Below are positions 20,038 through 36,938 of a DNA stretch of 37,560 bases, piece by piece. The DNA lies in IMG/VR virus record IMGVR_UViG_3300035180_000083, positions 1 to 37,560 of that record. The stretch is one strand, 5' to 3'. A model generated the notes under the pieces. That model made no database searches and was not told the DNA's origin. It was given only the letters and a program-made list of their open reading frames with translations. The first letter of the stretch is position 1; every line of letters starts with the position of its first letter. Source of the DNA: a virus. The position numbers and the translations under genes were made by a program.

Positions 20038-20370
20038 ATGGGCGGATCGCCAAAAATTAGCGGAGGAATGACTGCAGCTGAACAAGCTAAACTACTTGCA
20101 GACGAGCGTCGATTCCAAGATGAACAAGAAGAAAGACGAAGAGCACGTGCTCTTGATGAAGAGAAGCAGAGAGAAGAACGTGATAAGCTAGAGCAAGAAA
20201 GACTTGCTCAAGAAGAAGCACAGAGAATTGCTGGTATCAACAAGGCTGAACAAGCCGTGATTGATGAATCAGATGCAAACAAAAAGGATAAGAAGGCATC
20301 ATTGTCAAAGGTATCATTCTATACTGCGCTCGGTAAGGGTGTGGTAAACAAGAGTGAGAAGCCACTATGA
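20038..20370 (+). CDS. charged coiled-coil protein before the portal
   Basis: A 110-residue protein beginning MGGSPKISGG, then a long, uninterrupted Glu/Arg/Gln-rich helix (residues about 15-75, for example EEQEERRRARALDEEK-style repeats) and a Lys-rich end with KSEKPL. Small proteins starting MGG.SK/P just before the portal are common in phages and are usually of unknown virion function. AAGGAATTAAC lies upstream. It overlaps the portal start by four bases. Confidence 0.7.
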   Translation: MGGSPKISGGMTAAEQAKLLADERRFQDEQEERRRARALDEEKQREERDKLEQERLAQEEAQRIAGINKAEQAVIDESDANKKDKKASLSKVSFYTALGKGVVNKSEKPL

Positions 20371-21968
20371 TGTTACAAGAACGGTTTCGCATACTGGATG
20401 GAAATAGATCTAGTAAATTAGAAAGATCGCGTTTCTGTTCAGCACTTACAATCCCGACAATCCTACCACCATCCTCATGGGATGAGGGTAGATCTTTACC
20501 ACAACCATACTCATCCGTCAGTAGCAGAGGAGTAACCTCCCTTGCTTCGCGGATGTTGAGCGCATTGATTCCATTGAACGATGCACCATTCTTTAGATTC
20601 GGAATGAAGGATGGATCATCAGCTCCCTTTGAAGTAGATCAGTACCTTGAGACATTGTCTTATCAGGTCTACCGAAAGTTAATCTCAACTAACTTACGGG
20701 AATCTGTCTATCAAGCATTACAAAATCTAATCATCACTGGAGATATTCTAATGATGATGGATGATAAGTTTTTCTATACTAACTATCGGCTTGACCAATA
20801 CGTAGTACAGAGAGATGTAATGGGAGAAGTAATTGAGATTATACATCTTGAATACGAGGCTATTGATCCAGAAGATATTAGATATGATCAATCATCTATT
20901 GAGTATCGACAAGGATATAGAACATTCTACTGTCAGTTTATCAAACAAGATGATGGTAGGTGGTACTATAGAAAGGAAGACTCAGCTGGAGAACTGATTA
21001 ATGATGGATACTATTTGGTTCCAACATTTGCAGTTCTTAGATGGCTAAGTATTCCTGGTGAGAACTATGGTAGATCTCACTGCGAAGATATCATTGGAGA
21101 TATTAGATCTCTAGAAGCATATACCAAAGCACAGATCGAAGGTCTTGCTGCTGCTAGTGCATTCTGGATTGCAATAGATCCTGGTGGTGTAACCGAAGTA
21201 GATGACATTGCTCTTATGAGAAATGGATCCTTCGTATCCGCAAGACAGCAGGATGTATTTACTATTAGTCCAGCATCAACAATGAATCCACAGATTCAAG
21301 CAGCATCAGCTGCCGTTGAAAACATGAGACGAGAGGTTGGTCAGGCATTCCTTATGACTGGTCAGGCTATCCCATCTGGAGACAGAGTAACAGCCACAGC
21401 TGTTCGTATGATCGGTTCTGAACTTGAGACGGTACTTGGAGGAGCATTCTCTTCTATTGCCCGTACACTGATGGAGCCGATTGTAAAGAGATGCATTGTT
21501 CAGATGCTAGAGGAAAGTCTTCTTGACCCAGGTCTTGAGGAACAATTCTTTACTGATGATGGCACACTTGATCTACAGATCATCACTGGACTACAAGCAC
21601 TGAGCAGAGACTCAGACTTACAAAAACTTATGCAGCTTGGAGAGATGGTAAGAAACTTACCACCAGATGCTATTGCTACATTCAAGTGGGATGCTTATGC
21701 ATCTCAACTAATTACATCTCTAGGTTTCGATGCCCGTCAATGGGTTCGTAGCGAGGATGAAGTTAAGAAAATGCAACAGCAACAGCAGATGCAACAATCA
21801 CAGATGGCTACACAGCAGACAACTGCTGGAGCAGTGGGTTCATCTATGGCTCAGGCGGCAGGACAGGCTACCAGTACTGCATTAGAATCACCCGAAATGC
21901 AAGCACAGGCACAGCAAGCACTACAGGGTATTGACCTATCTCAGATAACTGGAGGAATGCAACAATGA
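20367..21968 (+). CDS. portal protein (T7 gp8-like head-tail connector)
   Basis: A 533-residue protein forming the dodecameric DNA channel at the capsid vertex. The start region (YSSVSSRGVTSLASRMLSAL, PLNDAPFFRF) and the central VIHLEY/EDI-type beta segments match the podovirus connector family, and the length is close to T7 gp8 (536). A conserved-looking EVGQAFLM..Q...S..RVTATA block with helix EL..LGGAFSS follows at about 325-370. The C-terminal 70 residues are Gln/Ala-rich and low complexity (KKMQQQQQMQQSQ), which is typical. Gene order before scaffold and capsid supports the call. ATG 20370 is an alternative start. Confidence 0.93.
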   Translation: MMLQERFRILDGNRSSKLERSRFCSALTIPTILPPSSWDEGRSLPQPYSSVSSRGVTSLASRMLSALIPLNDAPFFRFGMKDGSSAPFEVDQYLETLSYQVYRKLISTNLRESVYQALQNLIITGDILMMMDDKFFYTNYRLDQYVVQRDVMGEVIEIIHLEYEAIDPEDIRYDQSSIEYRQGYRTFYCQFIKQDDGRWYYRKEDSAGELINDGYYLVPTFAVLRWLSIPGENYGRSHCEDIIGDIRSLEAYTKAQIEGLAAASAFWIAIDPGGVTEVDDIALMRNGSFVSARQQDVFTISPASTMNPQIQAASAAVENMRREVGQAFLMTGQAIPSGDRVTATAVRMIGSELETVLGGAFSSIARTLMEPIVKRCIVQMLEESLLDPGLEEQFFTDDGTLDLQIITGLQALSRDSDLQKLMQLGEMVRNLPPDAIATFKWDAYASQLITSLGFDARQWVRSEDEVKKMQQQQQMQQSQMATQQTTAGAVGSSMAQAAGQATSTALESPEMQAQAQQALQGIDLSQITGGMQQ

Positions 21969-22618
21969 GTATTCAAGGAATCTCAGGTACGATGAACCAC
22001 ATTAAACAGGTTCAGCGGCTAACCTATGTCATGGATAATTCACCAGCAACAAATGTTATTCTGTATGTTAATAAGTCACAGTATGCTGGACGGTATTCAT
22101 CTATTGATGATGCACAACTTGCAGCACAAGGTCTATTAACAAAGTGTGGTTGTTCAAGACCAGACGAAAGAATATTAAATGTTCCTCAGGAAATTATAAC
22201 CCCTGGATTAAGAACAATAACTACACCAAACTGGATAGATATTACTGTTGAGTATGATCAAGTTACTCCAGGATTTGGATATATTTCAGCATCACAAAGA
22301 ATGACACTACAGGGTAATGCAATTGTATTACAACTATCTGGAACATCTAAAGCTGTTTCTTTATATGTAAAGAGAAGTTTTTCTCCTATTACCGCAACCA
22401 CAGTTAGTCCAGTCCTAGAACAATATACAAAAATAAATCTATTTCCAGCATATCTAATTGTTAGTCCTAGTGAGTACGTTAGATTTAAATGTGATCATAG
22501 TTACACAGCACCATACCCAACAGTTGCCAGTGCTTTAGAGTTAGTAACAATAACAAACCTAAGTAATAACGGGTCTCCTGTAGATACATTTAATATGAAC
22601 TACAGTATCTTAGTCTAA
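21965..22618 (+). CDS. beta-rich putative virion protein between portal and scaffold
   Basis: A 217-residue protein starting MSIQGISGTMNHIKQVQRLT, predicted nearly all beta from residue 70 onward (RTITTPNWIDITVEYDQ, NAIVLQLSGTSKAVSLYVKR). It contains three Cys and no signal peptide. T7 has no gene between portal and scaffold, so this and the next gene form an insertion in the head module. A head decoration or tail-associated role is plausible from position and beta content. No family recognised. Confidence 0.7.
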   Translation: MSIQGISGTMNHIKQVQRLTYVMDNSPATNVILYVNKSQYAGRYSSIDDAQLAAQGLLTKCGCSRPDERILNVPQEIITPGLRTITTPNWIDITVEYDQVTPGFGYISASQRMTLQGNAIVLQLSGTSKAVSLYVKRSFSPITATTVSPVLEQYTKINLFPAYLIVSPSEYVRFKCDHSYTAPYPTVASALELVTITNLSNNGSPVDTFNMNYSILV

Positions 22619-22626
22619 GGAACTAC

Positions 22627-24336
22627 ATGCCAAGAATTACATACGTACCAACAACACATCAGAATTCTAGTTCCTTTCCAGAAGATTCTACATCATACGC
22701 AGTATGGGGTACAGCATGGGATGGCAGAGGAATTTCATCAAACGATAAATCTATAGTTCCAGTAGTTAGAATGTTCTATAAAGAAGACACTAGCTTGGCT
22801 GGAACAAGGCGTAGATACACAGACAATGCAACACTGCCTACCCTACCAACTTCTATTAGCGACTCCCTCGCAGTACTACGCGGAATCCCACAATCAAGGC
22901 GTGTTTTGTTTCCTAACTTCTTACAAGACGATGGCATTGGTGGAAACGACCTAGATAACTCCTCATATTATAAGAACAATACTAATACTAATGTTCAAAT
23001 TTCTGGTGTTAACTGGGATTCTGTATTCCAATATAATGCATCATCATCTCAAACACTAGATGCAAAGAAATATTTCAAGGCTTATATAGAAGAAGCTGAA
23101 AAGACCAACGCACAGTTCAGCAACATTGTAGATGACTATGAGTCATGGTCTGCTTGGAGTCTTGGTGGTGTTCGATTAACTGGAGGAACTGTAGCTGCAT
23201 GGCAAACAGCTGGAGATGCTCGTCTTATTGGAATTATTACCGCAGATGCTAGGTTTACTGATACCGCGCATGGAGATCTTACACGTTCTAAGTCATGGAG
23301 TAAAATCCTAACAGATACTTATTTCAACTTAACAGGTACAGTTGCTACTGTTTCAACAATCATGGCAAACTGGATTGGACGAACAACATCAACAGATTAC
23401 GCAAGCGGTTCTCCTTATAATGTTCCCAACTCATATTACTCTTGGGATAAAACAATGAGACAGGTTGCTGAAACACACCGTGTTGAGCATATCTATAAGC
23501 AAGTATTTACAAAGCCGTGGTTTACTGGTAAGTATTCCAACTATGATACACTAAACAATACATACAAAGAGTGGAAATATCTACGAGATTATAACACTCA
23601 CTATGGACTTCTTGGTGGATTGTGTCACAGAGATCCTAAAGTTGTGCCATCACCCGTTCAATACGGTGTTCTTGCTGCTTTATATACTTGGGGATATGTA
23701 ACTACACCCACAACAGATGTAGATTTATATTCATTCAAAGCACCAGGATCTGGAGTAACCGCATACAATAATAATACCTATATGGTTTTTACTATGGATA
23801 TGCAGAATATAAGATCAATCATTCGAGAAAATGAGAATGGCTTTAGACCGTGGGTAAGACACCCTCTTGATACTGGTGATGCTTGTCAGTACGCATATGA
23901 TAGTAGATACTGGAATGAGATGATCTATCACTCAGCATTGAGTGGTGCAAACCCATTCTTATATTTTCAATCAGCAAAGACTGATACAGCACCATTACAT
24001 GCTTGTCTCAAAGAGATCAAGGGAATTTCAAAGAACGGAACATTTAAACCATGTTCAAATGCTAACTCAAGTTCATTAGAGATATCCGATAGAATTAAAC
24101 TAAAGGATAACTACGAGAAGGGTTGTGTTAGTGGTGGTGAAATTCAAAGTGGACAACTAAGAGGACAGAAACTATGGCGAGTTACTGTTCCTCCGCATCT
24201 TGTAAATGGTAGCGGAGTAACAACAGTAACTCTTCAGGTTAATGGTGTAAACGAAACACAAACAGTATCCGCAACAACTCGCGGGTTCTGGTATCTTAAC
24301 GATACAGCTCCCGTAATTATAACAACAACAGGATAA
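22627..24336 (+). CDS. TIM-barrel/glycoside hydrolase-like virion protein
   Basis: A 569-residue protein lying in the head gene cluster. From about residue 45 it reads VPVVRMFYKED, then alternating strand-helix units. DDYESW (Asp169, Asp170, Glu172) sits at the end of a strand, and YDSRYWNEMIYHSALSGANP (Trp429, Glu431, His435) precedes FLYFQS, both in style with barrel-ending loops of glycoside hydrolases. The last 110 residues (WRVTVPPHLVNGSGVTTVTL) look like a beta-sandwich. The general phrasing reminds me of uncharacterised planctomycete glycosidase-like proteins, but no family is confirmed. There is no signal peptide, which suits a virion-borne enzyme. A role in degrading host surface glycan is inference. 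Confidence 0.6.
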   Translation: MPRITYVPTTHQNSSSFPEDSTSYAVWGTAWDGRGISSNDKSIVPVVRMFYKEDTSLAGTRRRYTDNATLPTLPTSISDSLAVLRGIPQSRRVLFPNFLQDDGIGGNDLDNSSYYKNNTNTNVQISGVNWDSVFQYNASSSQTLDAKKYFKAYIEEAEKTNAQFSNIVDDYESWSAWSLGGVRLTGGTVAAWQTAGDARLIGIITADARFTDTAHGDLTRSKSWSKILTDTYFNLTGTVATVSTIMANWIGRTTSTDYASGSPYNVPNSYYSWDKTMRQVAETHRVEHIYKQVFTKPWFTGKYSNYDTLNNTYKEWKYLRDYNTHYGLLGGLCHRDPKVVPSPVQYGVLAALYTWGYVTTPTTDVDLYSFKAPGSGVTAYNNNTYMVFTMDMQNIRSIIRENENGFRPWVRHPLDTGDACQYAYDSRYWNEMIYHSALSGANPFLYFQSAKTDTAPLHACLKEIKGISKNGTFKPCSNANSSSLEISDRIKLKDNYEKGCVSGGEIQSGQLRGQKLWRVTVPPHLVNGSGVTTVTLQVNGVNETQTVSATTRGFWYLNDTAPVIITTTG

Positions 24337-24339
24337 TAA

Positions 24340-25227
24340 ATGTCTGAACAACAACAACCAACGACTCCACAGAACGTGGAACAATCAGAGGTTCATACCG
24401 ATCCCGTCATTGCCCGTGAGGCACAGGCTTTTGAGATACACGTAAACGCAAACAATGTACCAGTACCAGACAATTTCAAGTCTGTTGGTGATTGGTTTAC
24501 AGCCCTCAAGTCTGCTCAAGGTGAATACACCAAGGCAAGACAGGAGATCTCACAACTTAAACAACAGATTCCACAGCCAGTAGCAGCTGAACCCGTAGCT
24601 CAGGAGCAATCAGTTCCAAAGATTCCAGAGGAACTACGGATCCCAGACAAGCCAAAGGAAGTGGAGCAATCTACGCAAGCAGTAGAGAATGTACTCACTC
24701 AGGAAGAGTGGGCAAAGTATTCAACTGAATTTACCGTGAACGGCAATCTATCAGAAGATTCTCGTTCCAAGATTAAGTCGAAGCTAAATGTCCCAGACTT
24801 TGTGATTGATGACTTCATGCAGGGACAGAAGGCCCGCTTGCAAAATGCCTATTCAGAGGCAGCTAATACGGTAGGTGGCAGGGATAACCTTGCCCGTGTA
24901 TTTGATTGGGCTAGTAAGAACCTGTCGCAGCAGGATCAGATCACCATCAATACCGCATTAGCAACACCTTCATGGGAAGTTACGTTGCTTGGTCTTAAGT
25001 CGAAATATGATTCGGCTCAGGCTAGTAAGGTAACATCTCAGGAACCAGCAAAACAAATTGCAAACAAGGTAGGACAAGGTTCGGCAACTAATGTCAACAA
25101 CCTACCCTTTGGCAGTAAGGCTGAGTTCTACTCACAGCGTTCGGATCCACGCTTTGCAACAGATCCAAAATATAGACAAGCCGTAGAGTTACGGATGTCT
25201 AGAACTAATTTTAATAATCTCAGATAA
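24340..25227 (+). CDS. scaffolding (capsid assembly) protein, T7 gp9-like
   Basis: A 295-residue, acidic, Gln/Pro-rich protein immediately upstream of the major capsid gene, close to T7 gp9 in length (307). The N-terminal third is disordered (MSEQQQPTTPQNVEQSEVHT), then a helical middle (GEYTKARQEISQLKQQI) and a conserved-looking C-terminal region. It ends VELRMSRTNF near the residues that usually contact capsid protein. It would template procapsid assembly and leave before DNA packaging. Confidence 0.9.
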   Translation: MSEQQQPTTPQNVEQSEVHTDPVIAREAQAFEIHVNANNVPVPDNFKSVGDWFTALKSAQGEYTKARQEISQLKQQIPQPVAAEPVAQEQSVPKIPEELRIPDKPKEVEQSTQAVENVLTQEEWAKYSTEFTVNGNLSEDSRSKIKSKLNVPDFVIDDFMQGQKARLQNAYSEAANTVGGRDNLARVFDWASKNLSQQDQITINTALATPSWEVTLLGLKSKYDSAQASKVTSQEPAKQIANKVGQGSATNVNNLPFGSKAEFYSQRSDPRFATDPKYRQAVELRMSRTNFNNLR

Positions 25228-25239
25228 AGGATATAGAAC

Positions 25240-26640
25240 ATGGCTATTAATTCAGCCGACAATATTACAGCAGCAGAGTTCCCGTACAGATCAGACGTAA
25301 CATTGGGTCTAGCAGGACCAATCGCAGGAGCTAACAAACTCTGGTTATCCATCTGGAGCGGTGAAACCATTCACGCTTACGATGAGTACAATATGTTCGA
25401 GTCACTTGTTGACTCTAAGACCATCAGCAACGGCGTTGCTATGGAATTCCCAGTTACTGGAACCGTTAACCTCAATGCTGCATGGAACGCTGGTGTTGAG
25501 CTTCTTGGTTCAACCACCGACTCAACTTCCGCAACCATTGCAATCAAGTTAGACAAGCGTCCAATCGCTGCTCACTTTGAAATTGATAATGTTGACCTCA
25601 TGCAGACCCAGTGGGAGTTCCGATCAGAGCTTGCGCGTCAGGCTGGTATGACTCTTGGCAACGCACGTGACAAGCAGATCTCTGCTTACATTGCACGTGC
25701 TGCTGCTGAGGATCTTAACTTTAATACTGCATACAATGGCTCTATTTCTCCAGTTGGAACCGCCGATCCACGCGCAATTCCGTGTGGTCCAGTATACCTT
25801 GAACCAATGTTCTACAACCTTGGTCTATCATCTGCAAGTATTGCAGATAGATCATCAGCGGCTCTTTTAGCACTCAAGGCTTGCGAGGATTTTGTTGTAT
25901 ACCTCCAGACCATCAATGCTCCATCCGATGGGGTTTACCTTGCAGTAGAACCACGCGCATTCCAAGACATTCGTGCTCTTGGTGTTGCTCGTACAGATAC
26001 CGTTGCTGCAAATATGCAACCAATGTTTGGTGGCGTTGCAATGGCTGGTGGTCTTGGTGCAGCCCTAACTCAGGGTCTTAATAAGATCACTGATTCTCTT
26101 GAGTACATGGGTGTCAAGATCATGAAGAGCAATCACCTTCCAACTTCAAACTTCACTGGTATTGGTGAAGCACGTTACAACCTTGCCTTCGGTGATTGTG
26201 GTGTCTGTGGTCTTCTCTTTCAGAAGAGTGCGGTTGCCTCTCTCAAGTTTCAGGGTCTAAAGGTCGATACTGTTGATGACATTCGTCGTAACACCACCTT
26301 TACCGTTGCAAGCATGATGGCTGGTACTGGTGTTCTTCGTCCAGAGTGTGCTGCAGTGCTTGTCAAGCCAACCGCTGCAAACTGGATTATCACAGCTAGC
26401 ATTGATACTGAGGCTAACTATGCAGCAGCAACTCCATCAAGTCCCGCTCTAGCAAACCTATTTAACGGTCCAACTTCATTTGGTACTACTACTGGTATGA
26501 CTCTTAGCGCGTGGCTAGTTGGTGCTGGTTCTGGTGGTGTAACCGCTGCTAAGGCACGTCACGGTATACGTTGCAACCTTGGTGCAAACTTCAGCCGCGA
26601 AGTTCTCAATACCGCTTCTGGTTCATTCCCATACGCCTAA
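25240..26640 (+). CDS. major capsid protein, T7 gp10-like HK97 fold
   Basis: A 466-residue protein, larger than T7 gp10A (345) and gp10B (398). The N-terminal region (LWLSIWSGETIHAYDEYNMF) and HFEIDNVDLMQTQWEFRSEL with DKQISAYI correspond to the N-arm and E-loop/spine helix of podovirus capsid proteins. GVYLAVEPRAFQDIRAL is the P-domain helix. The last about 90 residues (ANWIITASIDTEANYAAATP onward) look like an added beta-rich surface domain. Codons here are G/C-richer than in flanking genes, consistent with high expression. GGATATAGAAC precedes the ATG. A terminator follows 107 bases after the stop. Confidence 0.95.
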   Translation: MAINSADNITAAEFPYRSDVTLGLAGPIAGANKLWLSIWSGETIHAYDEYNMFESLVDSKTISNGVAMEFPVTGTVNLNAAWNAGVELLGSTTDSTSATIAIKLDKRPIAAHFEIDNVDLMQTQWEFRSELARQAGMTLGNARDKQISAYIARAAAEDLNFNTAYNGSISPVGTADPRAIPCGPVYLEPMFYNLGLSSASIADRSSAALLALKACEDFVVYLQTINAPSDGVYLAVEPRAFQDIRALGVARTDTVAANMQPMFGGVAMAGGLGAALTQGLNKITDSLEYMGVKIMKSNHLPTSNFTGIGEARYNLAFGDCGVCGLLFQKSAVASLKFQGLKVDTVDDIRRNTTFTVASMMAGTGVLRPECAAVLVKPTAANWIITASIDTEANYAAATPSSPALANLFNGPTSFGTTTGMTLSAWLVGAGSGGVTAAKARHGIRCNLGANFSREVLNTASGSFPYA

Positions 26641-31062: not shown

Positions 31063-32481
31063 ATGCCAATTAATTTTCCAAACGCACCAGCAGATAATTC
31101 TACCCATACAGACGGAGCTATACAGTGGAGATTTAGTACAGCAAACAATAGCTGGACAATGATTACCACAGGAAATACTGGACTTGAAAACGCAACCGAC
31201 TATGATAATACTATTGTTGGTTTAAATAGAGTATCAACACAGAACTTACAAGTTCCTGCTGTTGGTCTTAGTTTTCATCCAGAAAACAAAACACTTAAAG
31301 TAAATGCACTTACTACTCAACTAGAAAATATGTTAGAGTTTAGAACAAGTACAGATACTTTAATTAACGCATTCAATAAAAGAGGTGTCTTGCTTAATGC
31401 AGGACGTATCTACTATCAGTCTTCACAACCAACTCCCAACGCAGCAGATACAGGTCTTCTGTGGCATGATACGGTTACAGGTATTTTACGTATCTGGGAT
31501 GGAAATAATTGGGTTGTATCTGGTGGTGGCGTAACCACGGCTGGTAACCAAGACATTACTGGAGCAAAGACTTTTACAAACAACATCTTCCTAAGTTCAA
31601 GTGCAAAACTAAATGGACAAGGCGCAAGCAAGTCCATTGTTATTGCTCCAACAAATGCAGGAAGTACACCAGTAGATTGCCTTACGGTAGCTACTACAGC
31701 TGCTACCTTTACAGTTCCAGTTGAGTTATCAGCTATTGGTACTACAGCTAAAACAGTTCTAGCAACCATAGCAGATACACAAACTATAACTGGTGCTAAG
31801 ACTTTTGCAAATGGTCTTAAAATTACAGGTACAGGTAGTATTAGAACAACAGATGATACAACAGCTAATGCTGCATCAGATAATATTATTATTCAACCAA
31901 ACATGTCTGCCTCTGGTAGATCTATTAAGCTTTTTAATAATGCAGATACTACAGATAGTAATGGAATAACCATTAGACCTAAGAATGCAGCAAATTACGG
32001 AAGCTTAAACGTTAATGGGTCAACCAATATAACTGGAGATCTGTTTGTTACTGGTACTGTAAACACAACGGTTGGATTATCAGCTGCCTCTGTAAGCATT
32101 GGTAGTCTTAAGTCTTCTTCAGGTACAGCCGCACAGAATACAAACACGGCTCCAACACCAATTGGAAACCTTACGTTTTCTTTAGGGCTTAGTGGTAATT
32201 ACACAGATCATAATATTACCGCAACAAACACATCCACTACAAAATCAGTTTCATTTTACTGGCGCAGAGAACAGATTCTTGCGGGAGTTTATACTTTTGT
32301 AGTCAGGAAAATTACTTTGGGTCCAAGTGGTATTGCGGTTTGTCCATCAATTACAGGATCACTAGGTAGTGGATCGGTAACCGCCGCTAATGTCCTTGTA
32401 GGCGGTTACCCAACTACCTATCTATTAAACGGAGCAACTGATGCTCCCATTATAATGACCTTTACATTGGCTCAGACATAA
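31063..32481 (+). CDS. tail fibre protein with repeated ITGAKTF units
   Basis: A 472-residue beta-rich protein. The N-terminal part has GLLWHDTVTGILRIWDGNNW, a unit often seen in fibre shafts. Two repeats follow, NQDITGAKTFTNNI and TQTITGAKTFANGL, each starting a shaft stretch. The C-terminal 120 residues (NLTFSLGLSGNYTDHNITAT onward) form a likely receptor-binding or tip domain. No chaperone or enzyme motif was found. It sits between the adaptor and the membrane-protein pair. Confidence 0.8.
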   Translation: MPINFPNAPADNSTHTDGAIQWRFSTANNSWTMITTGNTGLENATDYDNTIVGLNRVSTQNLQVPAVGLSFHPENKTLKVNALTTQLENMLEFRTSTDTLINAFNKRGVLLNAGRIYYQSSQPTPNAADTGLLWHDTVTGILRIWDGNNWVVSGGGVTTAGNQDITGAKTFTNNIFLSSSAKLNGQGASKSIVIAPTNAGSTPVDCLTVATTAATFTVPVELSAIGTTAKTVLATIADTQTITGAKTFANGLKITGTGSIRTTDDTTANAASDNIIIQPNMSASGRSIKLFNNADTTDSNGITIRPKNAANYGSLNVNGSTNITGDLFVTGTVNTTVGLSAASVSIGSLKSSSGTAAQNTNTAPTPIGNLTFSLGLSGNYTDHNITATNTSTTKSVSFYWRREQILAGVYTFVVRKITLGPSGIAVCPSITGSLGSGSVTAANVLVGGYPTTYLLNGATDAPIIMTFTLAQT

Positions 32482-33548: not shown

Positions 33549-36500
33549 ATGCCGCAAGACATCATTAGAATACGTAGAGATAGTTACGCTAACTGGTATG
33601 CACAAAACCCAACACTAGCTTTAGGAGAAATCTCCTATGATCTCACAAGCTTACAAATAAAAGTTGGAGACGGTACTACATTGTGGCGCAGTCTTCAAGC
33701 AATAGGAAATTCAACTCTTGCTAACGGAGACTATGGAGACATAGTTGTATCCGCTGGCGGAACAGTCATTAGTCTTGACTCAGCATTAATGACAATCATT
33801 AATAACAAGATTACACAAGGACCACTTGATGGCGGTAGTCCAGGAACAGCTGGTCAAGTTTTAAATATTAGAAGAGGTAATACTGGAAGCTGGTCTGGTG
33901 TAGTTTTATCAGCTGGAGAAATCGGCTATGATACTACTACTAGTGAACTAAAAGTAGGAGATGGAGTAACAGCTTGGGGTTCTCTAACAACCATTGGAGC
34001 AACCGCTAGCGTTAACAACCTTAATGCATTAACCGATGTAACTATCACTGGTACTCCAGCTTCTCAACAGGCGTTGTTATATAACAGTGGTACTTCACAG
34101 TGGACAAATCAAGCAATACCTACGCCCATATTTCCACTTGATACTTTATCAGATGTTACTATTACATCTCCTGCAAACACACAGTTACTACAGTACAATG
34201 GTACGGCATGGGTAAACGTTAATCCAGCTGTAACAGAACCGCCTATAACAGCTGGAACAAAGAATCACATTAATGTTGTTTCTTTAGATACTGATTGGCG
34301 TATTAGAGATAACGTCATTACACAGAACATGTTTGAGTTAACTTCACCAGTTAACCCAAATGACGCAGCTACAAAAGGTTATACCGACTCTACAGTAGGT
34401 ATGGCAATAACCGCTGCTATACTGGAGGATCTAGATCAAGTAGGTGGTATTGCAACCACGGCATATGTTAGAGAAGATAGTGGACCAACTATTGGAACAT
34501 ACATTGATGATCACCTAGATGTTCCTAATTACATTGCAAAGCTAGATTCAGATAAACGAATCTCTGCTTCATCACTGCCAGTAGCTGGTATTTCTAAAAG
34601 AAATCTAAAGTATTCCGAAAGAGATAAGGCAAACACTGGCCGAAATATTATTAGAACAATGCACACTGACGGTACTTCCGTTGGTGATTTTGTGTGGTCT
34701 ACTTACTCAGCAGTAGACCCCCTAGCTATTGCTACTCTGGTTCAGACTGATACTCATTCGTATATTCAAACAGAGGAAAATCAGTATGGTTCTGTTGGAA
34801 GAGTGCGGCATTGCCATGCTGGCTTTACTGGCATTAACCCAGACATGAAATTAGATGATTGTCCTAAAGAGTTTAAAGCACATGTAAAATATGATGGATC
34901 AGGAAACAACTCTACAGTAGCTTCTGTCGGTTTTCATGCTACTCACGGTACAAGGTCACAGCTACTAGCTTGCTTTGATTGTTTAGGTACAACCAATTGG
35001 TGGATGCGAGTAGTTATGGGTTATACTGCAACACCAACAGATAGAGGCATTCCTGGAAGTTACGAAAATGTAGTTTACTTTATGGATACTGGAATTCCAG
35101 TAAATCAGTTTACCCGACTCGGTATCCGTATTGTTCTGAACGAAAATCCAGGATATCTTCCTGGTGGAAGCGGAGTCTTAGATGGTATTTATTTCTACTC
35201 AGAAGTACCTCAAGAAGTTGGGTCGGCTGGAAATTACAAAGATTATCTCGAAACAAGTTTAGGATCATACCTTCTAACTGGACCAATTGAAGACGTATTT
35301 GGGGCTGATGCTCACTGTTATGTTGGTCTTGAACTTCGACAGAGAAATGAAGGAACAAACAAGTCTAGTCAAAAACTGTACTTCAAGGATATGACGTATC
35401 TTGAGTACTACGGTTATTCCCAGTTTGCCCCTATTGCCCACACCCACACGCTAGCTGACCTTACACAAAGTGCAGCTACGGATGGACAGGTTCCAACATG
35501 GAACAACACAGCGTTGGCTTGGCAACCAGCTACACCATCGGGTGGTGGCGGTGGCGGTGGCGGTGCTACGACGCTTGATGGCCTTACCGATGTAACCATC
35601 ACAGCTGCAACCACTGGTGACATTTTATACTATCAAAATACCCCATCTGCGGGGTGGTATAATAAAACCAGAACAGACGTTATGACTGGCTTTACATTGC
35701 TCTACCCAGCTCTACAATGTCCACCAGCCCAAACGGGTACAAGTAGGCTTGTGTGGTGGAATGATGATATGGGGGTAACAAGAACCATTACACCTAGTGG
35801 TACTGGTATTGCATCCCTTACCCTAGACACAACAGCCAATACTATGGTTGTCAATGTTCCAGCCAGTCACGCCCATGCTCTTTCAGATCTAACGACTACT
35901 GGAACAGCTGGTAGTACTAACTTCCTACGGGGAGATGGCGCATGGACAACGGGTTATCTAGTTACTGACGCAGACAAGGGAGACATCACCGTCACTGGTT
36001 CAGGTGCAACTTGGACTATTGATGCTAATGCTATTACTACTAGTAAACTTGCATCCGATTCGGTTAGAACCGCAAAGATTCAAGATGGGGCTGTTACTCT
36101 TGCAAAGATTACTCTTTTAGAACCAAATTCGTTTCCAATGGGAAATAACCTTGGAACTGCAAATACAGGTGGAGAATTTAGCACTACCTTCTTTGATGTT
36201 GGTGGTGCGGCTCCACAGATTATTACTCCCAAGGATGCCGCACTAACCTACGCCAAGATGCAGAACGTATCAGCAAGCGACAAGTTGCTTGGTAGGTCTA
36301 CAGCTGGTGCTGGTGTAGTCGAAGAGATTCCTTGTACAGCCGCTGGCCGTGCATTGCTAGATGATATTGACGCATCAGCTCAGCGTACAACACTTGGTCT
36401 TGGAGCACTAGCAACACTAGCAAATGCACCAGCGGTAACCCTTACGGGTACAACGCTGGCTGCTAGCGTTACTGCTTCTAGTTTGACATCGGTTGGAACG

Positions 36501-36938
36501 CTTGCAACCCTAACCGTCTCCGCTGCCATTGTGGGATCTGTAACTGGAAACGCAGCTACTGTTACCACTAACGCCAACCTAACGGGACACATTACCTCTA
36601 CTGGTAACGCTACTGCGTTGGGTACGTTTACCTCACTACAACTAAAGACAGCCCTTAGTGATGAAACAGGTTCTGGTGCAGCTGTCTTTGCCGATACACC
36701 GACCCTAGTTACACCAATCTTGGGAACCCCGACATCGGGTAACCTAAGTAACTGCACAAATCTTCCATCTCACACACACGCAGCATCAGATATAACAACT
36801 GGTGTAATTGCAACAGCAAGACTAGGTACTGGTACTCAGAATAATACCACCTTCCTAAGCGGAGATGGTACTTGGCAATCTGTATCTGGTTCTGGCATGA
36901 CCTTCCAACAATCACTAAGAATAGCGGCACTACTATGA
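33549..36938 (+). CDS. long modular tail fibre / receptor-binding protein
   Basis: An 1129-residue fibre. It opens with two copies of the hyaluronidase/phage-tail N-terminal unit (RIRRDSYANW...GEISYD...KVGDGTTLW, then NIRRGNTGSW...GEIGYD...KVGDGVTAW). Three shaft repeats, LTDVTITG, LSDVTITS and LTDVTITA, follow, each ending in a YN..T.W-like unit. Residues about 360-625 form a compact beta domain (lectin/concanavalin-like by look). A Gly8 tract separates this from a second shaft with ASDKLLGRSTAGAGVVEEIP and PTLVTPILGTPTSGN, modules widely shared among phage fibres. AGGAGG precedes the start. It ends by ATGA overlap. Confidence 0.88.
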   Translation: MPQDIIRIRRDSYANWYAQNPTLALGEISYDLTSLQIKVGDGTTLWRSLQAIGNSTLANGDYGDIVVSAGGTVISLDSALMTIINNKITQGPLDGGSPGTAGQVLNIRRGNTGSWSGVVLSAGEIGYDTTTSELKVGDGVTAWGSLTTIGATASVNNLNALTDVTITGTPASQQALLYNSGTSQWTNQAIPTPIFPLDTLSDVTITSPANTQLLQYNGTAWVNVNPAVTEPPITAGTKNHINVVSLDTDWRIRDNVITQNMFELTSPVNPNDAATKGYTDSTVGMAITAAILEDLDQVGGIATTAYVREDSGPTIGTYIDDHLDVPNYIAKLDSDKRISASSLPVAGISKRNLKYSERDKANTGRNIIRTMHTDGTSVGDFVWSTYSAVDPLAIATLVQTDTHSYIQTEENQYGSVGRVRHCHAGFTGINPDMKLDDCPKEFKAHVKYDGSGNNSTVASVGFHATHGTRSQLLACFDCLGTTNWWMRVVMGYTATPTDRGIPGSYENVVYFMDTGIPVNQFTRLGIRIVLNENPGYLPGGSGVLDGIYFYSEVPQEVGSAGNYKDYLETSLGSYLLTGPIEDVFGADAHCYVGLELRQRNEGTNKSSQKLYFKDMTYLEYYGYSQFAPIAHTHTLADLTQSAATDGQVPTWNNTALAWQPATPSGGGGGGGGATTLDGLTDVTITAATTGDILYYQNTPSAGWYNKTRTDVMTGFTLLYPALQCPPAQTGTSRLVWWNDDMGVTRTITPSGTGIASLTLDTTANTMVVNVPASHAHALSDLTTTGTAGSTNFLRGDGAWTTGYLVTDADKGDITVTGSGATWTIDANAITTSKLASDSVRTAKIQDGAVTLAKITLLEPNSFPMGNNLGTANTGGEFSTTFFDVGGAAPQIITPKDAALTYAKMQNVSASDKLLGRSTAGAGVVEEIPCTAAGRALLDDIDASAQRTTLGLGALATLANAPAVTLTGTTLAASVTASSLTSVGTLATLTVSAAIVGSVTGNAATVTTNANLTGHITSTGNATALGTFTSLQLKTALSDETGSGAAVFADTPTLVTPILGTPTSGNLSNCTNLPSHTHAASDITTGVIATARLGTGTQNNTTFLSGDGTWQSVSGSGMTFQQSLRIAALL
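35541..35564 (+). repeat. GGTGGC-type repeat coding for eight glycines
   Basis: GGT GGT GGC GGT GGC GGT GGC GGT inside the long fibre gene. It encodes a flexible Gly8 hinge between the putative lectin half and the C-terminal shaft. The hexamer repeat could slip in steps of six bases, changing hinge length without breaking the frame. Confidence 0.85.

Follow-up and report, generated by a model that had tools for sequence, protein, structure and literature searches.

Host-range genes of T7-like phages are thought to be kept at the tail-fibre end of the genome. Why, then, should a phage of this type carry the gene for a 569-residue, glycosidase-like protein between its portal and scaffold genes, and what might that protein do? 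The locus in question lies in an IMG/VR virus record, the whole of which (37,560 bases, referred to here as the window) was analyzed.

Two genes between portal and scaffold

The window has a T7-like gene set. It encodes an RNA polymerase, a primase/helicase, a DNA polymerase, an exonuclease and a ribonucleotide reductase, together with the portal, scaffold and capsid proteins, the tail tubular proteins and the tail fibres. The first-pass annotation had placed two extra genes between portal and scaffold; both are indeed present as open reading frames (ORFs), which we call P2 and P1, and their flanks are identified by PHROG and Pfam profiles. The order is as follows:

20367..21968, + strand: portal (head-tail connector), upstream border of the slot; phrog_449 (E 1.6e-101) and PF12236 (1.5e-52)
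21965..22618, + strand: P2, 217 aa, probable adaptor; ORF, family profile of the N-terminus
22627..24336, + strand: P1, 569 aa, glycosidase-like, optional gene; ATG with AGGA upstream; family, structure comparison and selection
24340..25227, + strand: scaffold, downstream border of the slot; phrog_1052 (E 4.5e-26) and PF05396 (3.1e-8)
25240..26640, + strand: capsid; phrog_267 (E 6.6e-31)

The P2 start overlaps the portal stop codon, P1 follows P2 after 8 bases and the scaffold gene follows P1 after 3. This tight spacing suggests that P2 and P1 would be made late in infection, together with portal and scaffold. Five named T7-like phages (Lau218, LUZ100, HTVC109P, S-SRP01 and RHEph21) share the window's order of portal, scaffold, capsid and tail tubular proteins A and B, but where the window has P2 and P1 they hold at most one small hypothetical ORF: none in Lau218, S-SRP01 and HTVC109P, one of ~53 aa in LUZ100 and one of ~163 aa in RHEph21.

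Scans with P1, portal and scaffold recovered P1 relatives, 32-99% identical to P1, from 18 further IMG/VR contigs; they sit in the same slot on every contig that retains a flank. The P1 of the window and that of relative L002 are 77% identical, with dN 0.17 and dS 0.94; this divergence pattern, together with the relatives on 18 other contigs, establishes P1 as a real gene. It is under purifying selection, dN/dS being ~0.1-0.25 in most pairs and 0.43 between the window and L036, where dS is near saturation. The family begins with a short conserved MPxITYNP, and none of the other ORFs in the scanned loci shares this start. P1 has no match in Pfam, PHROGs, NCBIfam or the sequences of the PDB, nor in named phages or plasmids, and none was detected in the sampled prokaryote genomes, which were scanned by short peptide patterns that remote relatives could escape. 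An NCBIfam 'halocin' hit was rejected, as it scored 17 bits where the cut-off is 200.

Other features of the window and its relatives were recorded along the way. At 33549-36938 the window encodes a protein of 1129 aa that begins like a fibre (phrog_38417, E 3.7e-18) and also matches PF18454, the N-terminal domain of the major tropism determinant (E 4e-27). Between this large fibre gene and a T7-fibre-like protein, at 31063-32481, lies a 472-aa protein that has no PHROG match and is found in all three fully read relatives at 38-51% identity. Two contigs of ~64 kb, both from relatives of the window phage, encode giant proteins downstream of terminase: a 4007-aa ORF beside one of 1519 aa at locus L146 (5403-17426 of the locus; contig IMGVR_UViG_3300044628_000433, 45403-57426), a pair with no PHROG match of note, and a 3665-aa ORF beside one of 1369 aa at locus L152 (contig IMGVR_UViG_3300035670_000195, 23242-34239). 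The latter contig (64703 bases, loci L151-L154) repeats its first bases at its end, with at least 20 identical, which suggests that the genome of this relative is probably complete. For a T7-like phage, 64.7 kb is a large size. The window probably ends before the giant-ORF region.

The portal-scaffold slot as a swap site

Comparison of the slot across relatives revealed what we regard as the more interesting part of this locus, its variability, which lies beyond the sight of a single-sequence reading. Among ~50 representative relatives the portal-scaffold gap ranges from 279 to 6,505 bases. The clearest case is the pair L002 and L009, which are 98% identical in portal, 92% in P2 and 97% in scaffold, yet only one of the two carries P1. 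They differ precisely by this entire gene, the boundary extending from the ribosome-binding region behind P2 up to the start codon of the scaffold gene. L012 likewise lacks P1 and, as with L009, is nearly identical to L002. P2 is exchanged as well, being only 31% identical between L034 and L029 (portal 99%, P1 96%, scaffold 99%) and only 34% between L002 and L004 (portal 99%, P1 95%). The two genes also move separately: in L004, P1 follows an 84-aa P2, and a closely similar 84-aa P2 is found in L012, where P1 is absent. Exchange is thus quick among close relatives, with P2 at 31-34% where portals are 99% identical and P1 present or absent where they are 98% identical. Distances between P1 proteins also disagree with those of the core portal gene, since the window and L022 are 82% identical in portal but 55% in P1, and the window and L002 are 70% identical in portal but 77% in P1. 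The portal-scaffold slot is therefore a swap site, in which P1 is an optional gene.

A further contig, IMGVR_UViG_3300035661_000293 (L006/L049), has a portal 100% identical to the window's and ends ~20 bases past the portal match; an end at the start of the swap site is as expected if strains differ there. More distant relatives fill the slot with proteins that match tail families (phrog_5939, E 3.7e-36 to 2.7e-74), a CBM_4_9 carbohydrate-binding domain (3e-7) or a lectin-like domain.

That phages nearly identical in their head genes do without P1 argues against a role that all of them need, such as assembly, cell-wall passage or lysis. This bears directly on the idea that P1 is a peptidoglycan-cutting glycosidase for entry or lysis. 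Barrel glycosidases are common among phage cell-wall enzymes, GH25 lysozymes being an example, and the structural comparison of P1 described below is glycoside hydrolase-like, but L009 and L012 must enter and lyse their hosts with P1 dispensable, and no lysozyme profile matches P1. We consider this explanation very improbable. As relatives gain, lose or replace the genes of the slot, P1 probably helps to choose or enter particular hosts.

Predicted fold and candidate active site of P1

The first-pass annotation had proposed a TIM-barrel-like glycosidase with a C-terminal beta-sandwich and two catalytic glutamates, Glu172 and Glu431. The regions concerned are:

23125..23142, + strand: P1 codons I167 to E172, motif D169-D170-x-E172; candidate active-site strand end
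23899..23931, + strand: P1 codons D425-x-R427-Y428-xx-E431-xxx-H435; invariant, predicted helix 426-438
24124..24333, + strand: C-terminal beta-sandwich of P1, about residues 500-569; six predicted strands, block pLDDT 60-87

No glycoside hydrolase family profile in Pfam, NCBIfam or PHROGs matches P1 or its family above cut-off, and we therefore do not claim membership in a described glycoside hydrolase family. A DUF4015 hit to a single member of the P1 family (E 0.048) fell below cut-off and was discarded. An AlphaFold2 model of P1 built with a 17-row alignment (pLDDT 49, pTM 0.42) consists of a low-confidence alpha/beta region followed by a well-predicted sandwich, so the proposed C-terminal domain is predicted here too, at residues 500-568. 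A Foldseek search with the model against PDB and BFVD returned no match at E <= 0.001. When Foldseek's candidate chains, which the sandwich may itself have selected, were aligned to the model with VIA-align 2, 50 of the 50 matches listed were glycoside hydrolases. The top match among those listed was a GH27 enzyme (Z 6.4 over 151 residues, rmsd 4.5 A), and most alignments span model residues ~334-560. This best Z of 6.4 is below the safe range and below the 7-8 often reached by models that have no clear Foldseek match.

An earlier AlphaFold2 model made from 4 close sequences (pLDDT 27.7) gives a rough control against which to judge the structural alignment. Its matches are confined to the sandwich; most are Ig/FN3-like and some are alpha-galactosidases, indicating that the hydrolases come in through the alpha/beta part that the better model adds. 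The barrel proposal thus gains from the uniformly hydrolase matches and loses from a weakly modelled barrel and a Foldseek result short of significance, and we take the structural alignment as suggestive only of a glycoside hydrolase-type fold, an alpha/beta barrel that would be followed by the C-terminal sandwich. A barrel with a C-terminal sandwich is known from GH27 alpha-galactosidase/alpha-N-acetylgalactosaminidase, GH79 heparanase, GH44 and GH13, in which, as in the predicted order of P1, an alpha/beta region comes first and a sandwich after. P1 differs from these enzymes in being 3-12% identical over the aligned part, in giving no profile match and in offering candidates only for a catalytic pair.

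As to those residues, D169, D170 and E172 (codon 23140-23142) are invariant in 10 of 10 full-length members of the family, the nine others being 34-77% identical to P1, and the 17-row model predicts a strand at 167-169, at the end of which the DDxE motif lies. Glu431 is also invariant, but it falls inside the predicted helix 426-438. The claim of two catalytic glutamates is accordingly half supported: Glu172, within DDxE, is the leading candidate for a catalytic residue of P1, and Glu431 appears doubtful in that role. Conservation does not settle the pair, since Glu172 and Glu431 are joined by 14 other invariant aspartates or glutamates, 16 in all, and the 10 proteins amount to about five lineages, so that invariance alone cannot single out two of them.

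These features also invite the reading that P1 decorates the virion or resembles a lectin, keeping a glycosidase-like fold but only binding glycan or shielding the particle. About half of a barrel plus the sandwich is what can be recognised in P1, Glu431 sits in a predicted helix and carbohydrate-binding and lectin-like domains occupy the slot in relatives, all of which would suit a binding protein; on the other hand, 16 acidic residues, those of DDxE included, held invariant at 34-77% identity exceed what we would expect a binding scaffold to need. On balance we regard this as unlikely, and prefer an enzyme.

P2 as a probable adaptor, and the proposed place of P1 on the virion

If P1 is an enzyme that cuts a host glycan, how might it reach its substrate? 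P1 has no domain in common with a known tail adaptor, and neither P1 nor P2 matches a tail or depolymerase family in PHROGs or Pfam. A conserved N-terminal anchor followed by a variable distal part is found in P2, and we claim no such architecture for P1. The P2 family, whose members range from 84 to 1125 aa, joins a conserved N-terminal domain of about 85 aa to a variable C-terminal part. A hidden Markov model (HMM) was made from the first 88 aa of 20 short P2 proteins. In the same slot of L007, which was outside the model, it recognises the start of a 1125-aa protein (E 1e-23), and this protein also contains a tail-family stretch (phrog_4577, E 1.5e-6). The HMM also finds L016, L056, L063, L066 and L069; besides the L007 protein, its matches in the slot include proteins of 314-471 aa, and the remainders of these proteins are quite different. 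From its sequence family, P2 is a probable adaptor, which may attach to the particle by the conserved domain and display the variable distal part. P2 also gave a hit to an internal part of Klebsiella tail fibres (E 0.1), which we discounted as a chance match.

The late structural operon, the swapping of the slot and the fusion of P2-type domains to tail-like domains suggest that P1 too may be located on the virion. One could suppose instead that P1 is a soluble late enzyme off the particle, acting on host polysaccharide inside the cell or, once released at lysis, clearing glycan to prevent useless re-adsorption. The absence of a signal peptide, as first described, agrees with this, the top 19-residue hydropathy mean being 0.3 among windows starting within the first 60 residues, where no transmembrane stretch is found either; P1 also has no recognised anchor and comes and goes independently of the P2 variant. 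Yet P1 is spaced as a structural gene within the head operon, and other occupants of its slot are tail-type proteins, so we think a soluble role improbable.

Our best explanation, to which we give about an even chance, is that P1 is an optional, exchanged, glycosidase-like virion accessory acting on host glycan, with the portal-scaffold slot as its swap site. We infer its fold, enzyme activity, substrate, virion attachment and role in host choice as parts of this account. P1 most likely has the barrel-and-sandwich fold and would most likely cut a polysaccharide on the host surface, probably as a component of the particle and with Glu172 as lead candidate catalyst; as an additional cassette that recombination adds or removes, it would serve those phages whose hosts bear the matching polysaccharide, which would explain why the gene is optional and mobile.

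More tentatively, P1 may be the founder of a new phage glycosidase family, and the gap may give this T7-like clade a second host-choice locus, distinct from the tail-fibre gene, in which genes for adaptors and enzymes are swapped singly. We found no report in the open-access literature of a barrel depolymerase at the portal-scaffold position. If this proposal is true, the swap site in the head operon would be a second place in which to seek proteins of uncultivated phages that set host range or cut polysaccharides, and the orphan glycosidase-like family may supply kinds of enzyme missing from present libraries.

The closest parallel is with the Klebsiella KP32 and KP34 viruses, whose receptor-binding proteins are described by an anchor and anchor-branch model (PMC6872550). 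No homology was found between those systems and the slot proteins; the likeness is one of organization, with a conserved N-terminal anchor whose distal part can be exchanged, anchors that are truncated in some phages, an additional enzyme gene that breaks synteny and intense horizontal transfer (PMC6872550). The candidate enzyme of the window is glycosidase-like and, unlike those of KP32 and KP34, is not recognised as a beta-helix spike. The position differs as well: the KP32/KP34 genes lie downstream, near the internal virion and lysis genes (PMC6872550), whereas those of the window lie between portal and scaffold.
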